Source of the DNA: a virus
Virus record (IMG/VR): IMGVR_UViG_3300044729_002142
Location: 1-26,691 of that record
Reading direction: 5' to 3' (one strand)
Length of the DNA: 26,691 nt
Positions 41 to 13,126 of the stretch are shown one piece after another. The notes beneath the pieces are model-generated. The model was not told where the DNA came from. It searched no databases and saw only the letters and a program-made list of their open reading frames with translations. Within the stretch, counting starts at the first letter, position 1; each line of letters starts with the position of its first letter. The translations under genes were made by a program, and so were the position numbers.

Positions 41-625
41 TTATTGAACTTTCTTAATTTTAGAGATTTTACCTTCAAAAACATGTTTACCAACTTTAAT
101 AGTCATTAATTCATTAGATTTTTGAGTCGACTCAACCATTAATCCATTTTCACTTAATACTTCTTCAATAGTTTCTCTAACAATTTTTTTTATATCAGCT
201 GCGGATAAATTAAATGATGTATTTTGTTGTCTTGGTTGTTGTTGAGTTGATTCAGAAACAGGTTGTTTATTTCCCATTAATCTTGCAGCTTTTTCAATAA
301 CCTCATTTGATAATGTTGGTGCGTATGATTGTGGTTGTTGTATAGGATGTTCAATCATTAATTTTTTAATAGCATCTGGTAATTTAGAGTTTTTAATTCT
401 ATCTTCAGTTACTACAGGTGGTGATTTTGGTGTTGGGGGTGCTGAAGATAAATATTCTTCAGGAATATTGTAACTTGATTGTATTGGTTTCTCTTCGTAT
501 TCATCACGAGAATACGACTCAGACATACTTGGTCTATTTGATTTTGGTAATGAACCTCTGTCCATATCGTTATGTCTATCCATGATTTGTTTAGACACCA
601 TTAATTTTTCCATTAAACTATCCAT
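41..625 (-). CDS. Hypothetical low-complexity phage protein, possible head/core component
   Basis: No family recognised. The 194-residue product is mostly polar and probably disordered: Ser/Pro/Gln-rich stretches around residues 28-75 and 95-135, with Pro-rich PPTPKSPP near 65. Two segments look helical: about 77-92 (DRIKNSKLPDAIKKLMIEHP) and about 143-165 (ADIKKIVRETIEEVLSENG). The C-terminal 25 residues look like a small beta/basic tail ending in KIKKVQ. It is the last gene of a five-gene minus-strand block and overlaps the end of its upstream neighbour by 8 bases, so translation is probably coupled. Charged helices plus disorder would fit a scaffold, core or internal virion protein, but that is only inference. 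There is an early LME (residues 4-6) and an internal MIE, so cleavage by a prohead protease is possible but weakly supported. Confidence 0.75.
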   Translation of the reverse strand: MDSLMEKLMVSKQIMDRHNDMDRGSLPKSNRPSMSESYSRDEYEEKPIQSSYNIPEEYLSSAPPTPKSPPVVTEDRIKNSKLPDAIKKLMIEHPIQQPQSYAPTLSNEVIEKAARLMGNKQPVSESTQQQPRQQNTSFNLSAADIKKIVRETIEEVLSENGLMVESTQKSNELMTIKVGKHVFEGKISKIKKVQ

Positions 626-1022
626 TGTCTTCTAATTCAAATTTTGCACATATTTTTAGTCCTACCATACCTTTATCATCAGGATTGTAGAGTGGTCTTG
701 GTTCTGTGAAATTTTCTAAAGGATTAACAGAATAATTTCCTATTCTATCAACTCTAAATAACCTCCATCCTGGTAAAGGTTGTTCACCTTTTGAACCAGT
801 ATACGAAGCTCCTTCACGGTCCCAAGCTCTGATTACCATATTACCTTTTTTTGATGTTCCGTAACAGAATGGTTCAATAACTCTTAAACCTTTTCCTGTA
901 TAATTCCCATCATCATCTCCATCATAATAAATTGTTACCAAATTTTTATTTTTGATAGAAGAGGTAATATCATCAGTACTTGCTTCAACAATAACTTTTT
1001 TTAAAATATTGTAAAGTTTCAT
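618..1022 (-). CDS. WYL-like domain protein with capsid-targeting-like N-terminus
   Basis: A 134-residue protein. Residues 1-14 (MKLYNILKKVIVEA) form a short amphipathic peptide ending in I-V-E followed by Ala. This resembles the T4 capsid-targeting sequence (internal protein III begins MKTYQEFIAEA), which is cut after [I/L]-x-E. The remainder resembles a WYL domain: an opening helix (ITSSIKNKN), strand VTIYY, then GLRVIEPFCYGTSKKG, VIRAWD and GWRLFRVDRI, matching the usual r-x-I-E-P, wyl-x-A and FRldRI landmarks. WYL domains usually sense ligands or nucleic acids in regulators of transcription or defence. No helix-turn-helix is attached, so this is a stand-alone domain. Its start overlaps the stop of the downstream-numbered gene by one base. 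A late, head-packaged regulator injected with the DNA is inference. The WYL assignment is from motif pattern only. Confidence 0.7.
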   Translation of the reverse strand: MKLYNILKKVIVEASTDDITSSIKNKNLVTIYYDGDDDGNYTGKGLRVIEPFCYGTSKKGNMVIRAWDREGASYTGSKGEQPLPGWRLFRVDRIGNYSVNPLENFTEPRPLYNPDDKGMVGLKICAKFELEDNG

Positions 1023-1318
1023 TACGACGTAGGAGGAGTATTGTATTCTTTTCCTGGTTGATATGTGTTTATTTTAATTTCACTCTTTCTTTCAACATTA
1101 TCTGTGATGTTACCACCATTATAGATGTCTAAGAAACTACCTGTACCCTTACCTTGTAGGTCACCATCACCGATAGCATCTTTGTTTGTTGCTCCGTAAA
1201 TGTTTTTATCACCACCATAGTTATTTCTGGTAATTAAATCTTTTCTAATTCTATCTGAAATTTCAGATAACTTATTAGATGGTTGTTGTGTGTCAACTGG
1301 TTCTTTTTCTGCTGCCAT
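1022..1318 (-). CDS. Hypothetical small hydrophilic protein
   Basis: A 98-residue product of unknown family. It starts MAAEKEPVDTQQ, has one predicted helix around residues 16-32 (KLSEISDRIRKDLITRN), and is then rich in Gly, Asn and Asp (GGDKNIYGATNKDAIGDGD) and likely disordered. There are no transmembrane segments, cysteines or catalytic motifs. It lies between the WYL-like gene (one-base overlap) and the 136-residue gene (4-base gap), so it is probably co-transcribed from the promoter at 2616-2623. Function is unknown. A minor virion or assembly component is the only guess the context allows. Confidence 0.65.
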   Translation of the reverse strand: MAAEKEPVDTQQPSNKLSEISDRIRKDLITRNNYGGDKNIYGATNKDAIGDGDLQGKGTGSFLDIYNGGNITDNVERKSEIKINTYQPGKEYNTPPTS

Positions 1319-1322
1319 AATT

Positions 1323-1733
1323 TTAAAGTATTTGTCTCATTATTTCGTTTATTCTTTTTAAACTCTCAACCACTTCTTTATTATTTTCATATAATTTTGA
1401 ATGTGGTTTATCTGTTATATTTCTTGGGTCATTTTTTTGGTGTGCCGATAAATATTGGTTTTGCATACCCGAATCACTAGCATCTCTTTTTTGTCTATTA
1501 ATACTTCCTCTATCAGAACCTAAATTTTGGGTAATAAATGATTTTAATGAATTTAAATCTCTACCCTGAAACTTATTGTTATCAATATCGTGAAGAATTT
1601 TTTTCATGTTTTGGTATGTAAGATACCCATTAGTAAAAATATTTTTTATAGTGGTTTCATCTTTATGATTTTCTAAAGAATTTAAAACATTTTCAGGAAT
1701 CTCATATTTTTTTCCGTATAATTCGTTGTTCAT
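1323..1733 (-). CDS. Hypothetical protein
   Basis: A 136-residue protein I do not recognise. The N-terminal half is helical and charged (YEIPENVLNSLENHKDETTIKNIF, then YLTYQNMKKILHDIDNN). The centre is polar, low-complexity and Arg/Ser/Asn-rich (about 75-110). The C-terminus is another helix, EVVESLKRINEIMRQIL, with heptad-like hydrophobic spacing. Its start overlaps the end of the 290-residue gene in ATGA fashion (1730-1733), so the two are likely translationally coupled and may act together. Two helical ends around a disordered centre would suit an adaptor or scaffold-like protein, but no function is assigned. Confidence 0.7.
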   Translation of the reverse strand: MNNELYGKKYEIPENVLNSLENHKDETTIKNIFTNGYLTYQNMKKILHDIDNNKFQGRDLNSLKSFITQNLGSDRGSINRQKRDASDSGMQNQYLSAHQKNDPRNITDKPHSKLYENNKEVVESLKRINEIMRQIL

Positions 1734-2602
1734 TTCTTTAATATTTTAATTAAATCATTTAATTCTAAACCTTCTTTCTCAGCAATTTTTTTAATATTTT
1801 CTAAGTTTTTCATTAATAATTTACTAACACCACTTTTCTTTTTACCAACCTCTTTGTCCGAACTTTTTTTACCTAAAACAATATCCTCAACCATATCAAC
1901 TGCTTGTTGTTTTTTAATATTTTCGAGCTCCGATTTTTCTGAAATTGTCATTCTATCAATAAAACCTTTTTGTTTTTTGATTTTTTTAGGTACTGCATTT
2001 AATTTTCTTCTATGTTTTTCAGCGTCAGGTTCTTTACCTTGTTGTCTTGTTCTTTCAGCGGCCTCATCTTTATCTAAACCTAATTCTTTAACAAATGTTT
2101 TAAAAGTTTCAGGACCATTTTTGTCTTTTGTTTCTTCATAACCAAATGCATCGGAAAAGTCAGTTTCGTTAATTACCTCATCTGTTTCTTCTTCACCTTC
2201 ACCCCAATAAACACGATATCCACGAGTAATAGGATTGTTTGTTTGTCTTGTTGCAACAACCTCTTGGTCCATTGTACTCTTTGGTGCTAAGTAAGGGTTG
2301 TGAATTGGAATTTTTGAACTCAAAAAAGAACCGTCGTAATCAACCAATTCACCAAGTTCATCTTTCTTTTTTGTTAAAGTTTTTTTAACATCAGAATTAT
2401 TCTTTAATTTTTTTTCTTTTTGAATTTTTGAAATTGTTTTTTCAACCTCTTTTTTATTTTTTTTATCAAATTTTACAATTTCATCTTTTTTTCTAGCTTC
2501 AGTTAAAGTATTGCTAACACTAAAATAAACGGAAATAGTATCTTTACCCTCTTTGATATAGAAGTAATAAGGTGACGAAAAATATTCTTTATTAAATTCC
2601 AT
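1730..2602 (-). CDS. Hypothetical highly charged Lys-rich protein, first gene of minus-strand block
   Basis: A 290-residue protein with no recognised family. It has a short N-terminal part (MEFNKEYFSSPYYFYIKEGKDTISVYF) and is then dominated by Lys/Glu helices: about 40-85 (KKNKKEVEKTISKIQKEKK and following), 160-215, and 225-290. The last helix (SKLLMKNLENIKKIAEKEGL, then NDLIKILKK) looks like a coiled coil or SAP/HeH-like end. The overall composition recalls phage core or scaffold proteins and DNA-binding internal proteins, but there is no homology evidence. Residues 16-18 read I-K-E followed by Gly, a possible prohead-protease site. The ATG is chosen because a TATTTATA motif ends 13 bases upstream. 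It is the promoter-proximal gene of the 41-2602 block and divergent from the fibre gene. Confidence 0.72.
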   Translation of the reverse strand: MEFNKEYFSSPYYFYIKEGKDTISVYFSVSNTLTEARKKDEIVKFDKKNKKEVEKTISKIQKEKKLKNNSDVKKTLTKKKDELGELVDYDGSFLSSKIPIHNPYLAPKSTMDQEVVATRQTNNPITRGYRVYWGEGEEETDEVINETDFSDAFGYEETKDKNGPETFKTFVKELGLDKDEAAERTRQQGKEPDAEKHRRKLNAVPKKIKKQKGFIDRMTISEKSELENIKKQQAVDMVEDIVLGKKSSDKEVGKKKSGVSKLLMKNLENIKKIAEKEGLELNDLIKILKK

Positions 2603-9846: not shown

Positions 9847-11352
9847 TCAATTCACAGTATAAATTAAATCTTGTGTTGGAATTTTAAACATACTTGAACT
9901 AAAGGCAACAGTTTTGTTTTTAAAAATATAAACTTCTTTGTTAATATTTGAAAAAATTAACAAGTCGGTATTAAATTTTTTAACAAACCCTCTGATTTTT
10001 ATATTATAAAAACCATCAATTACTTCCATACTTAAAATTGGTTTTACTTGAGCATTTTGTATTTTGTTGTCAAAATTAACAGTTAAATCAGTTCCCGCAA
10101 AATCCTCTTTTGAACCTAAACTACCAACTACAACTGCTGTACCCTCACCAAATTCTTGATTGATTTTTTTTGCAACATACTCCTCAAGTTGACCACCTTT
10201 ATCATGGGTTCTTTTTAAAAGTTTCATAATTTTATCAAGAGTTTTAGACCCTTTAAAAATTCTTTCACCAAAAAACTCCATATAAGAACAAAATTTATTT
10301 ATCTCTTCTACTTGTTGTGAAGGTGTCACACCAATAAAATTTAATGTAGGTTTATTTATTTTTGTAAGAACAACATTCAAATCATCAACTAAAATTTTAA
10401 ATCCAATATAGTTTGTATTTAATTTATTAATTACTGAACGACCTGGTTGTTCTAAGTCGTAAATACCTGAAGATGAACCTTCAGAGTGTTGATTGTTTTC
10501 ATGCCATTTATCAGATAAAACTCTTTTCAACGTATTATCAATACATCTTCTATAAGTCCAAAGAACATTTTTGTTGTTACTAAAAATATCTGAGTAGTCA
10601 GATACGTTTTCGTATAAAAGTTTTTTTTGTGAAGTTGACTCGTTCAATTTTTTTTCAGTTTTTGATTTGTATAACTCATTAACAAATTCCCAGTTGATTA
10701 CTTCCCAAAAATTTTCAATATATTCGTCTCTTTTGTTTTGGTATTTTAAATAATAAGCGTGTTCCCATAAATCCAAACCTAACAACGGAAAACCACCCTT
10801 GTTTATTATATTCATAAGTGGGTTGTCCTGATTTGAGGTGGACATAACTTTTAATCTACCTGTATCAGTTAACACTAACCAACACCATCCTGAACCAAAT
10901 CTTTTTCTTGAGATTTCTTCAAATTTAGTTTTGAAGTTACGATACGTCCCATATTGTTTAACAATCTTTTCAAATACTTCACCACTTGGTTTTTGTGGTG
11001 TGGGTGATAACATTTTCCAAAACAATGCATGATTAAATGCTCCACCTGCGTTATTTCTTATTGTTGTATTATACTTTGAAATTTGTTTAACAATATTCTC
11101 CAATTCAACATCACCATAATCTTTTTTACGAAGAGCTGAATTTAATTTTTTTACATACCCCTTGTAATGTTTCTGATAATGGAACTTCATTGTTTCAGGG
11201 TCAATAAATCTTCTTAATGATGCGTAACCATAAGGTAATTTATCAATACCTATGGTTTTCATTTCGTTAATAAAAAATTTGGTTTCAGGTTGAGTTTCCT
11301 CACCTAATATACGACTAACTAATGACTCTGATACTAAATTTAACGATTTCAT
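9847..11352 (-). CDS. Fe/Mn superoxide dismutase fused to PD-(D/E)XK nuclease-like domain
   Basis: A 501-residue fusion. Residues 1-18 (MKSLNLVSESLVSRILGE) resemble a capsid-targeting peptide ending L-G-E. Residues about 35-230 are an iron/manganese superoxide dismutase with all four metal ligands by comparison with E. coli SodA: H58, H108 (NHALFW), D194 and H198 (DLWEHAYY). Y66 and Q175 (NQDNPLM) match the Mn-type active site. The C-terminal part (about 250-501) has E390/E391, GTD (D422) and QVK (435-437), the E...D...QxK pattern of restriction-endonuclease-like nucleases. Between them KKLLYEN (243-249) offers a second [L]-x-E site. A late-type motif lies 4 bases upstream. SOD chemistry is well supported; the nuclease activity, head packaging and cleavage are inferred. 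Phage SOD genes are rare, and I know of no described fusion like this. Confidence 0.9.
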   Translation of the reverse strand: MKSLNLVSESLVSRILGEETQPETKFFINEMKTIGIDKLPYGYASLRRFIDPETMKFHYQKHYKGYVKKLNSALRKKDYGDVELENIVKQISKYNTTIRNNAGGAFNHALFWKMLSPTPQKPSGEVFEKIVKQYGTYRNFKTKFEEISRKRFGSGWCWLVLTDTGRLKVMSTSNQDNPLMNIINKGGFPLLGLDLWEHAYYLKYQNKRDEYIENFWEVINWEFVNELYKSKTEKKLNESTSQKKLLYENVSDYSDIFSNNKNVLWTYRRCIDNTLKRVLSDKWHENNQHSEGSSSGIYDLEQPGRSVINKLNTNYIGFKILVDDLNVVLTKINKPTLNFIGVTPSQQVEEINKFCSYMEFFGERIFKGSKTLDKIMKLLKRTHDKGGQLEEYVAKKINQEFGEGTAVVVGSLGSKEDFAGTDLTVNFDNKIQNAQVKPILSMEVIDGFYNIKIRGFVKKFNTDLLIFSNINKEVYIFKNKTVAFSSSMFKIPTQDLIYTVN

Positions 11353-11365: not shown

Positions 11366-13126
11366 TTACTTACTATTGATTTCGTTAAGTATTTGTTCAA
11401 CAATATCTACAGAATTTTCATCTATATCACCCATAACCGTACCAATAATTTGTTTCTTCTTTATAAGAATGTCGTAGATAACACCTTCAATCGTATTTTC
11501 AAATAGTGGGTAATATATTGAAACTGAATTTTTTTGTCCGTATCTGTAAGCTCTGTCTTCCGCCTGACTATGTTCTGCGGGAACAAATGATAAGTCATTC
11601 ATAATAACGGCTTCACCTGCCGTAAGAGTTAATCCGACACCTGCAGCTTTCATGTTACCACAAAAAACTTGTATTTTATCACTCTCTTGGAACTTATCAA
11701 CCGCATCTTGTCTTGCAGGTTTAGATGTTGAACCATCTAAATAAACAGATTTCTTACCAAAATGTTCGTGTATCTTTTTTAAAGGTTCTGTGAAGTTACT
11801 GAAGATAATAACTTTTTTGCCTTGCTCAATAATGTTTTCGGCAAGTTCAATTGTAATTGGTATTTTTTCTTCGGCAATAACTTGTCTTACTTTCATAAGT
11901 TTTGTGAACTGAACCGATAACGATTTTGATTCGTCTTGTCTGTTGTTATACCAATCATAATACTCACCCATCAACCCTTCGTATAATCTTGATTTTAAAC
12001 GGAGGTAAACAGGTGTCATAATTTTTTCAGGTAAATCCAAAACTTCAGTTTTTAATCTTCTTAAAATTTGACGAGAAGTTCGTTCTCTTAATTCTTCTAA
12101 ATTAGATGCTCCTGTTACATTCCAAATCTTTTTACCACCAACTCTAAACTGATAACCACCACAATATCTAATTGCGTATGCTTGCCAGTTTTGACTTACA
12201 GGGCTATCAATAAGTTTCAAAATATTATAATAATTCATAGGACGAGAAGTCATTGGTGTTCCCGTCAATAACCAAAGTTTTTTAATGTCTTTGGTTACAT
12301 CCATTATAATCTTTGTTCTCTGAGCTTGAGCGTTTGAAACATAATGCGCTTCATCAATAACAACCAAATCAAATTTTGAATTAAGGATTATTGAGTTTAA
12401 TTTATCTTTTGGGTCGTGGAAGTTTTTAAGTATGTCGTAATTAAGAATTACATAATCAGCCTGTTCATACTTTTTACCTTCACATATGTAAATTGTTTTA
12501 TCAGTATAGTTTCTAATTTCCCTTTCCCAATTTATCTTAAGTGATGCTGGACAAATAATTAATACTTTATTAGCTCCACTTTCTAACGAAGCGATAACGG
12601 TACTTGTTGTTTTACCAAGTCCCATGTCATCGGCTAAAATGAACTTATCGTTTTTTAATAATTTTTCTATGGCTTCTTTTTGGTGGGCAAGTGGTGGTCG
12701 GTTTTCATATTTTGTGTAATCAACATCAACCAAGTTTTCGGTGTGTTGTTTAATAACTGCAGCTTTAGGTATCCAAAAATCGTGAATAGTCTCACCACTA
12801 AAAATCTTACCCCAAATGTGATATGATTTATCTTTCTCAATTAAAATCTTTTCAACATAGATTTTATCAGGTTCTTTAATAAAAGGATTGTCGGCAACAA
12901 GTTTTTGAGAAAAGTATGAGTCAATCTCAACCCATTTTTTAGCAACTTTTGGAACTACTGAATTGAAGTCAATCACATAATCACATTGAGCTCTCGTTGG
13001 GAGATACTTTTTATTTGACTCAATTTGTTTCTTTAACTTAAGGATATAGTTATTTGACCCCTGATAATTTTCAAGAATGGATATTGCTTGTTGTTCAATA
13101 CTTAAATGTCCTGTAGAAGTTGTCAA
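11366..13126 (-). CDS. SNF2-family DNA helicase/translocase
   Basis: A 586-residue superfamily 2 ATPase of the SNF2 branch. Motif I is ADDMGLGKTT (K about 172), motif II DEAH (D258), motif III LLTGTPM. A C-terminal RecA domain has VIIFSNF, YLDGSTSKPARQDAV, GVGLTLTAGEAVIMND and the Snf2 motif VI QAEDRAYRYGQ. The N-terminal ~150 residues are a separate, unassigned domain. SNF2 proteins translocate on double-stranded DNA. A fork-remodelling or recombination role, like the SMARCAL1-type enzymes or the unrelated T4 UvsW, is inference. The only in-frame start before motif I is TTG at 13124-13126, and a TAA stop lies 9 to 7 bases upstream of it, so this uncommon start is forced. No TATTTATA precedes it, consistent with non-late expression. 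The gene is divergent from the neck gene at 13184. Confidence 0.92.
   Translation of the reverse strand: MTTSTGHLSIEQQAISILENYQGSNNYILKLKKQIESNKKYLPTRAQCDYVIDFNSVVPKVAKKWVEIDSYFSQKLVADNPFIKEPDKIYVEKILIEKDKSYHIWGKIFSGETIHDFWIPKAAVIKQHTENLVDVDYTKYENRPPLAHQKEAIEKLLKNDKFILADDMGLGKTTSTVIASLESGANKVLIICPASLKINWEREIRNYTDKTIYICEGKKYEQADYVILNYDILKNFHDPKDKLNSIILNSKFDLVVIDEAHYVSNAQAQRTKIIMDVTKDIKKLWLLTGTPMTSRPMNYYNILKLIDSPVSQNWQAYAIRYCGGYQFRVGGKKIWNVTGASNLEELRERTSRQILRRLKTEVLDLPEKIMTPVYLRLKSRLYEGLMGEYYDWYNNRQDESKSLSVQFTKLMKVRQVIAEEKIPITIELAENIIEQGKKVIIFSNFTEPLKKIHEHFGKKSVYLDGSTSKPARQDAVDKFQESDKIQVFCGNMKAAGVGLTLTAGEAVIMNDLSFVPAEHSQAEDRAYRYGQKNSVSIYYPLFENTIEGVIYDILIKKKQIIGTVMGDIDENSVDIVEQILNEINSK

Follow-up and report, generated by a model that had tools for sequence, protein, structure and literature searches.

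A stand-alone WYL-domain protein with a predicted capsid-targeting leader, conserved across a group of lake phages

WYL domains occur in HTH-WYL-WCX regulators such as PafBC, BrxR, CapW and DriD (Pfam PF13280). The ligand face of CapW consists of a Tyr and an Arg-x-Phe-x3-Arg motif (Arg183/Phe185/Arg189), and the Tyr of the W-Y-L letters is absent from this protein (PMC9122588). Some Pif1 helicases also end in a WYL domain without HTH, which is fused to the helicase and whose arginines are believed to make the contact with ssDNA (PMC9964779). A different group of proteins is relevant for the N-terminal end of the product described here. The T4 internal proteins IPI, IPII and IPIII and the Alt protein bear a CTS, are processed by gp21 and are ejected. 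The gp21 cut falls directly behind L/I-x-E; for a cargo to be packaged into the head and delivered to the host, residues 1-10 of IPIII are sufficient (PMC9026906). Phage P1 DarA and Hdf, whose roles were tested in P1, are likewise head-internal, conserved and linked to anti-restriction, and DarA is trimmed at its N-terminus.

The stretch of DNA analysed here (the window) is a 26.7-kb fragment (26,691 nucleotides) of virus record IMGVR_UViG_3300044729_002142. Its positions 618..1022 (-) carry an exact open reading frame, with the ATG at 1022 and the stop ending at 618, encoding a product of 134 AA. That this is a real gene is borne out by its relatives, its single copy per record and an invariant gene order. 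In IMG/VR, close relatives of the protein number 16 and wider ones at least 124; the gene was present in exactly one copy in all 12 related records tested, and 110 distinct phage sequences of the family were gathered for residue counts. PHROGs and NCBIfam gave no match to the protein, and of three genome-contig matches two (L085 and L086) were spurious. Six loci encode longer, 210-217 AA WYL proteins with an extra C-terminal segment of alpha-helical appearance (SKAAExYRQIYxELExR...).

Results of profile searches and structure modelling agree on the fold of the product. Pfam PF13280 aligned with residues 17-96 of the window protein at 15.4 bits (E 0.019), which is below the 21.8 cut-off. Among the relatives, however, 14/14 close ones match WYL at E<=1 (best 1e-6), 30 in a set of 43 relatives match it at E<=0.01 (best 1.2e-6), and a match at 6.3e-7 was obtained with the PADLOC WYL models. 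An AlphaFold model of the window protein based on a 43-sequence alignment had a pLDDT of 76.8, and a relative modelled with the leader removed reached 83.6. When the two models were compared with the PDB by Foldseek, the leading 8 matches of the one and the leading 18 of the other were all WYL proteins, namely PafBC, BrxR, DriD (in its ssDNA-bound structure) and CapW; in the second search Sm proteins came after these. The E-values of the fold matches are modest (best about 8e-4), yet the agreement across matches is strong. A PDB sequence search with the protein and with profiles A1 and A2 returned chance matches only. We conclude from the family matches and the models that the 618-1022 (-) product has a WYL fold, weakly assigned by the single sequence and firmly by the family, with the mature, Sm-like barrel domain predicted at residues 14-125 (648..983, minus strand). 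The WYL-like domain proposed in the sequence-only reading is thus upheld, and structure prediction, which that reading had named as a check, gave an Sm-like/WYL fold, so that the refuting outcome named there, a fold of another kind, did not arise. The domain also stands alone as had been claimed, as neither HTH nor WCX is found in the single-domain protein.

Comparison with the HTH-WYL-WCX regulators shows a common WYL fold and ligand face (Tyr and R-x-F-x3-R/K); the phage protein differs from them in lacking HTH, WCX and the W-Y-L letters, and in having a leader. The stretch corresponding, as judged by eye, to the namesake strand reads NMVIRAW or NxVLRAW. Y33, R87 and F89 are each invariant in 110/110 distinct phage sequences, and position 93 is occupied by K in 85 and by R in 25 of them. 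The R87-x-F89-x3-R93 motif (744..764, minus strand; R or K at 93) has the spacing of Arg183/Phe185/Arg189 in CapW, a residue correspondence made by motif spacing and not by structural superposition. Judged from these residue counts, the WYL ligand face is kept despite the lost letters. A further motif, YNPxDKGM at residues 112-119 (666..689, minus strand), is common in alignment A3 to leaderless bacterial and huge-phage relatives; its N113 is present in 110/110 and D116 in 109/110 phage sequences.

The WYL domain lies within 300-418 AA proteins in three phages of 634-642 kb. Shorter relatives of about 97 AA, for example Aliarcobacter WP_263515104.1 and Deinococcus pDrdII WP_162865729.1, consist of the same domain at 28-39% identity and share with the phage protein the R/EP, G-x-S, WRxF and Y(N)-x-x-D motifs, but have no N-terminal leader. 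As such leaderless stand-alone proteins exist in bacteria, archaea and phages, the earlier premise that WYL domains normally sit behind an HTH is incomplete. Several of the short proteins are encoded in putative defence operons. A leaderless stand-alone WYL gene adjoins PDC-S46 at one bacterial locus, PDC-S06 with LmuB-like and NucC-like genes at another, and an OLD/GajA-like gene at a third; close to a Rhodococcus copy there is a gene annotated as an ATP-dependent endonuclease. Other copies had no obvious defence neighbour, so that the link of these relatives to defence operons is suggestive only. In the three putative defence operons named above (L084, L087 and L088), the stand-alone WYL protein is possibly a small regulatory or sensor subunit of the system.

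The phage proteins are distinguished from the short relatives by residues 1-13, MKLYNILKKVIVE (984..1022, minus strand), a predicted capsid-targeting propeptide with a predicted cut after E13. In the AlphaFold model of the window protein residues 1-12 are disordered (pLDDT<50), and in the alignment the leaderless proteins of bacteria and plasmids start at about residue 15. An [I/L]-x-E closes the leader in 110/110 distinct phage sequences, with E13 equally invariant, and the leader is 13 residues long in 102/110. A literature search for the leader string gave no match. Genes for a gp21-type (S77) protease and for a gp23-type capsid protein are present in 9/9 long related records, but not in the window itself. 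The capsid propeptide of the related phages ends in ENQAS-x-LINE|[AS], a position which we take to be homologous to the T4 gp23 cut site, and the leader ends of the WYL proteins (ILE|VAS, INE|VAS, IVE|AST) are closely similar to it. The capsid-targeting-like peptide of the sequence-only reading therefore gains more support than had been stated, from the invariant [I/L]xE, the leaderless relatives and the protease and capsid genes of related records. That the leader is a capsid-targeting signal of T4 type is well supported, indirectly, by comparison of sequences. A gene that lies between portal and gp21, and putatively encodes a prohead-core protein, was considered as a further bearer of a shared cleavable leader; since its [LI]xE end is found in only some genomes and the motif is broken in others, the idea was dropped.

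The likeness to the T4 internal proteins and Alt covers the short N-terminal leader ending in L/I-x-E, the fact that the genomes concerned also encode gp21-type protease and gp23 capsid protein, and the variety of bodies behind similar leaders. On the last point, we compared the frequency of [LIV][ILV]xE at residues 6-13 with that at residues 30-120. The pattern was 2.7-5.0 times enriched in five related genomes and 2.5 times in the cultured Flavobacterium phage immuto, against a ratio of 1.0 in a low-GC plasmid control, and with D replacing E the ratio was about 1-2. A leader HMM was seeded from two genomes, and three further genomes were left unseeded. At score>=12 its matches were N-terminal in 47/48 cases, and in the unseeded genomes in 12/12, 9/9 and 5/6. 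At score>=5, 82 proteins had the match at their N-terminus, among them the WYL protein of some genomes; their bodies fall into 62 unrelated families. A stricter motif with a following [ASVIENQD] was found at 179 N-termini, whereas 200 shuffles gave 60 on average and 80 at most. With a looser leader pattern, in which an MK start was forced, N-termini could not be told apart from internal windows; this was achieved only by the position-specific [LIV][ILV]xE test, by the HMM and by the control with the plasmid. The WYL leader itself scored 5.3 (G001) and 4.9 (G002) against the HMM and below zero in G006 and G007, indicating that it shares the architecture of the class and not the dominant RLTESDL-type sequence. 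About 80 proteins of five related phage records have short basic leaders, such as MKKIVRLTESDLxRIVKRVIxE and MKELIRHILKE, before 62 unrelated bodies; from their N-terminal sequences, these proteins are possibly a large head-cargo set.

As the leader is kept in every related lake phage examined, the phage probably carries the sensor-like protein inside its particle. In the reading that we favour, and hold to be moderately probable, the product is a head-packaged WYL domain, trimmed by a gp21-type protease, probably ejected with the DNA and having a conserved job in early infection; packaging, cleavage, ejection, ligand and role are all predicted here. Residues 1-13 would dock the protein into the prohead core, and the T4 gp21-type protease would cut after E13 during head maturation, so that only the WYL domain would stay with the packaged DNA. 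The trimmed domain would probably enter the host with the DNA. Its Arg/Phe/Tyr face would most likely bind single-stranded nucleic acid or a nucleotide-type ligand, and the task that the domain performs as infection begins would be conserved throughout the phage group. Such a cargo would differ from the T4 internal proteins in being a WYL domain, in its leader sequence and in being universal in the clade. If packaged, it would be, as far as we know, the first case of a WYL domain inside a virus particle.

The gene lies in a tightly packed block, as seen from overlapping start and stop codons. Its stop overlaps by 8 bases the start of w1 (194 AA; 41..625), and its start overlaps by one base (TAATG) the stop of w3 (98 AA; 1022..1318). 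Upstream follow w4 (136 AA; 1323..1733) and w5 (290 AA; 1730..2602), the first gene of the block, which is divergent from a 945-AA open reading frame at 2650. All four conserved neighbours are on the minus strand, and no function could be assigned to them. The order w5-w4-w3-WYL-w1, then glycosyltransferase-like, PolB-type exonuclease and dUTPase genes, hardly varies except for extra genes that are occasionally inserted after w1. The late-type virion operon of the sequence-only reading is shown only in part, since the four co-directional neighbours have no assigned function and these three genes lie downstream. The exonuclease and dUTPase genes would suit a protein whose leader is not a packaging signal and which acts late in the cytoplasm as a nucleic-acid binder, with exonuclease, dUTPase and glycosyltransferase as partners. 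We regard this as quite unlikely, because the invariant [I/L]xE on a disordered leader, missing from the leaderless relatives, and the genome-wide leader class are hard to explain otherwise than by packaging. In one related record an intein-like insert, which contains a homing-endonuclease-like open reading frame, apparently splits the dUTPase gene (L036, 9739-11626).

Anchoring on w3 and w1 recovered the WYL gene in 160/160 loci, in 159 of them with both neighbours, among the 80 best matches per query. Its mean identity of 59% is the highest in the five-gene block (38-54% for the others), while the capsid protein (79%) and the protease (76%) stand above it. This invariance of a syntenic core gene bears on what a packaged WYL domain would do. 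It could also mark a protein that is packaged and trimmed but serves head morphogenesis or DNA organisation, having no role in the host cell. The basic median pI of the mature family (8.9; the window member is acidic, 5.1), the effect of IPIII on T4 head assembly (PMC9026906) and the P1 proteins DarA and Hdf, which line the capsid and touch DNA (PMC12810830), point the same way, DarA and Hdf being of unrelated fold. Yet scaffolds do not usually have a ligand-sensing fold, and the leaderless bacterial homologues lie among defence genes and not in phage head modules, and we consider the head-part role unlikely on the whole.

The same conservation argues against a lineage-specific arms-race gene. 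The sequence-only reading had proposed a domain that, once delivered, could titrate or mimic host regulators or anti-phage sensors; what is titrated would be the ligand of host WYL regulators or of such sensors. This proposal is consistent with a fold closest to defence and DNA-damage regulators, with the leaderless genes beside PDC-S46, PDC-S06/NucC-like and OLD/GajA-like genes, and with T4 IPI being a packaged anti-restriction protein. However, the packaged counter-defence proteins of T-even phages are diverse (PMC3012670 for both), whereas the WYL gene is universal and well conserved in its clade, favouring a core function over titration of host regulators; we judge the proposal the least probable of those weighed here. 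An invariant gene is unlike fast-evolving counter-defence, and is explained no less well by a conserved role inside the head or early in infection. A bolder reading, speculative and in our opinion improbable, is that of a virion-delivered sensor, a bare WYL domain akin to the stand-alone WYL proteins of bacterial defence operons, by which the signal of a host WYL-linked defence would be captured or misread right from the first minute, the WYL protein being the sole universal member of the leader-tagged cargo set.

A gene for ribosomal protein bS21 is found on the opposite strand beside the protease gene in 8/9 long related records. The same bS21/protease layout is seen in Bacteroidota-infecting bS21 phages (PMC9723584), which makes Bacteroidota hosts likely; the related phages are probably, by gene layout, Bacteroidota jumbo phages of the bS21 kind. 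The WYL protein points to a large class of proteins with such leaders in lake phages that are abundant; proteins of this class may enter the host by injection, and the leader would offer a simple sequence test for head cargo. A search for the generic leader sequence in cultured phages found nothing. By the positional pattern, the leader class seems to be present in a cultured Flavobacterium phage, which opens the idea to laboratory testing. In Flavobacterium phage immuto_2-6A a like leader, MKKVMGNLADLLLE|E, is seen on a gene annotated as deoxyribonucleotidase, and the capsid propeptide appears to end in IVSE|A. In the window itself, a Fe/Mn superoxide dismutase with a long C-terminal extension (9847-11352, minus strand) has a start, MKSLNLVSESLVSRILGEE, that resembles the leaders, and its gene adjoins that of a SNF2-family helicase (11366-13126, minus strand).
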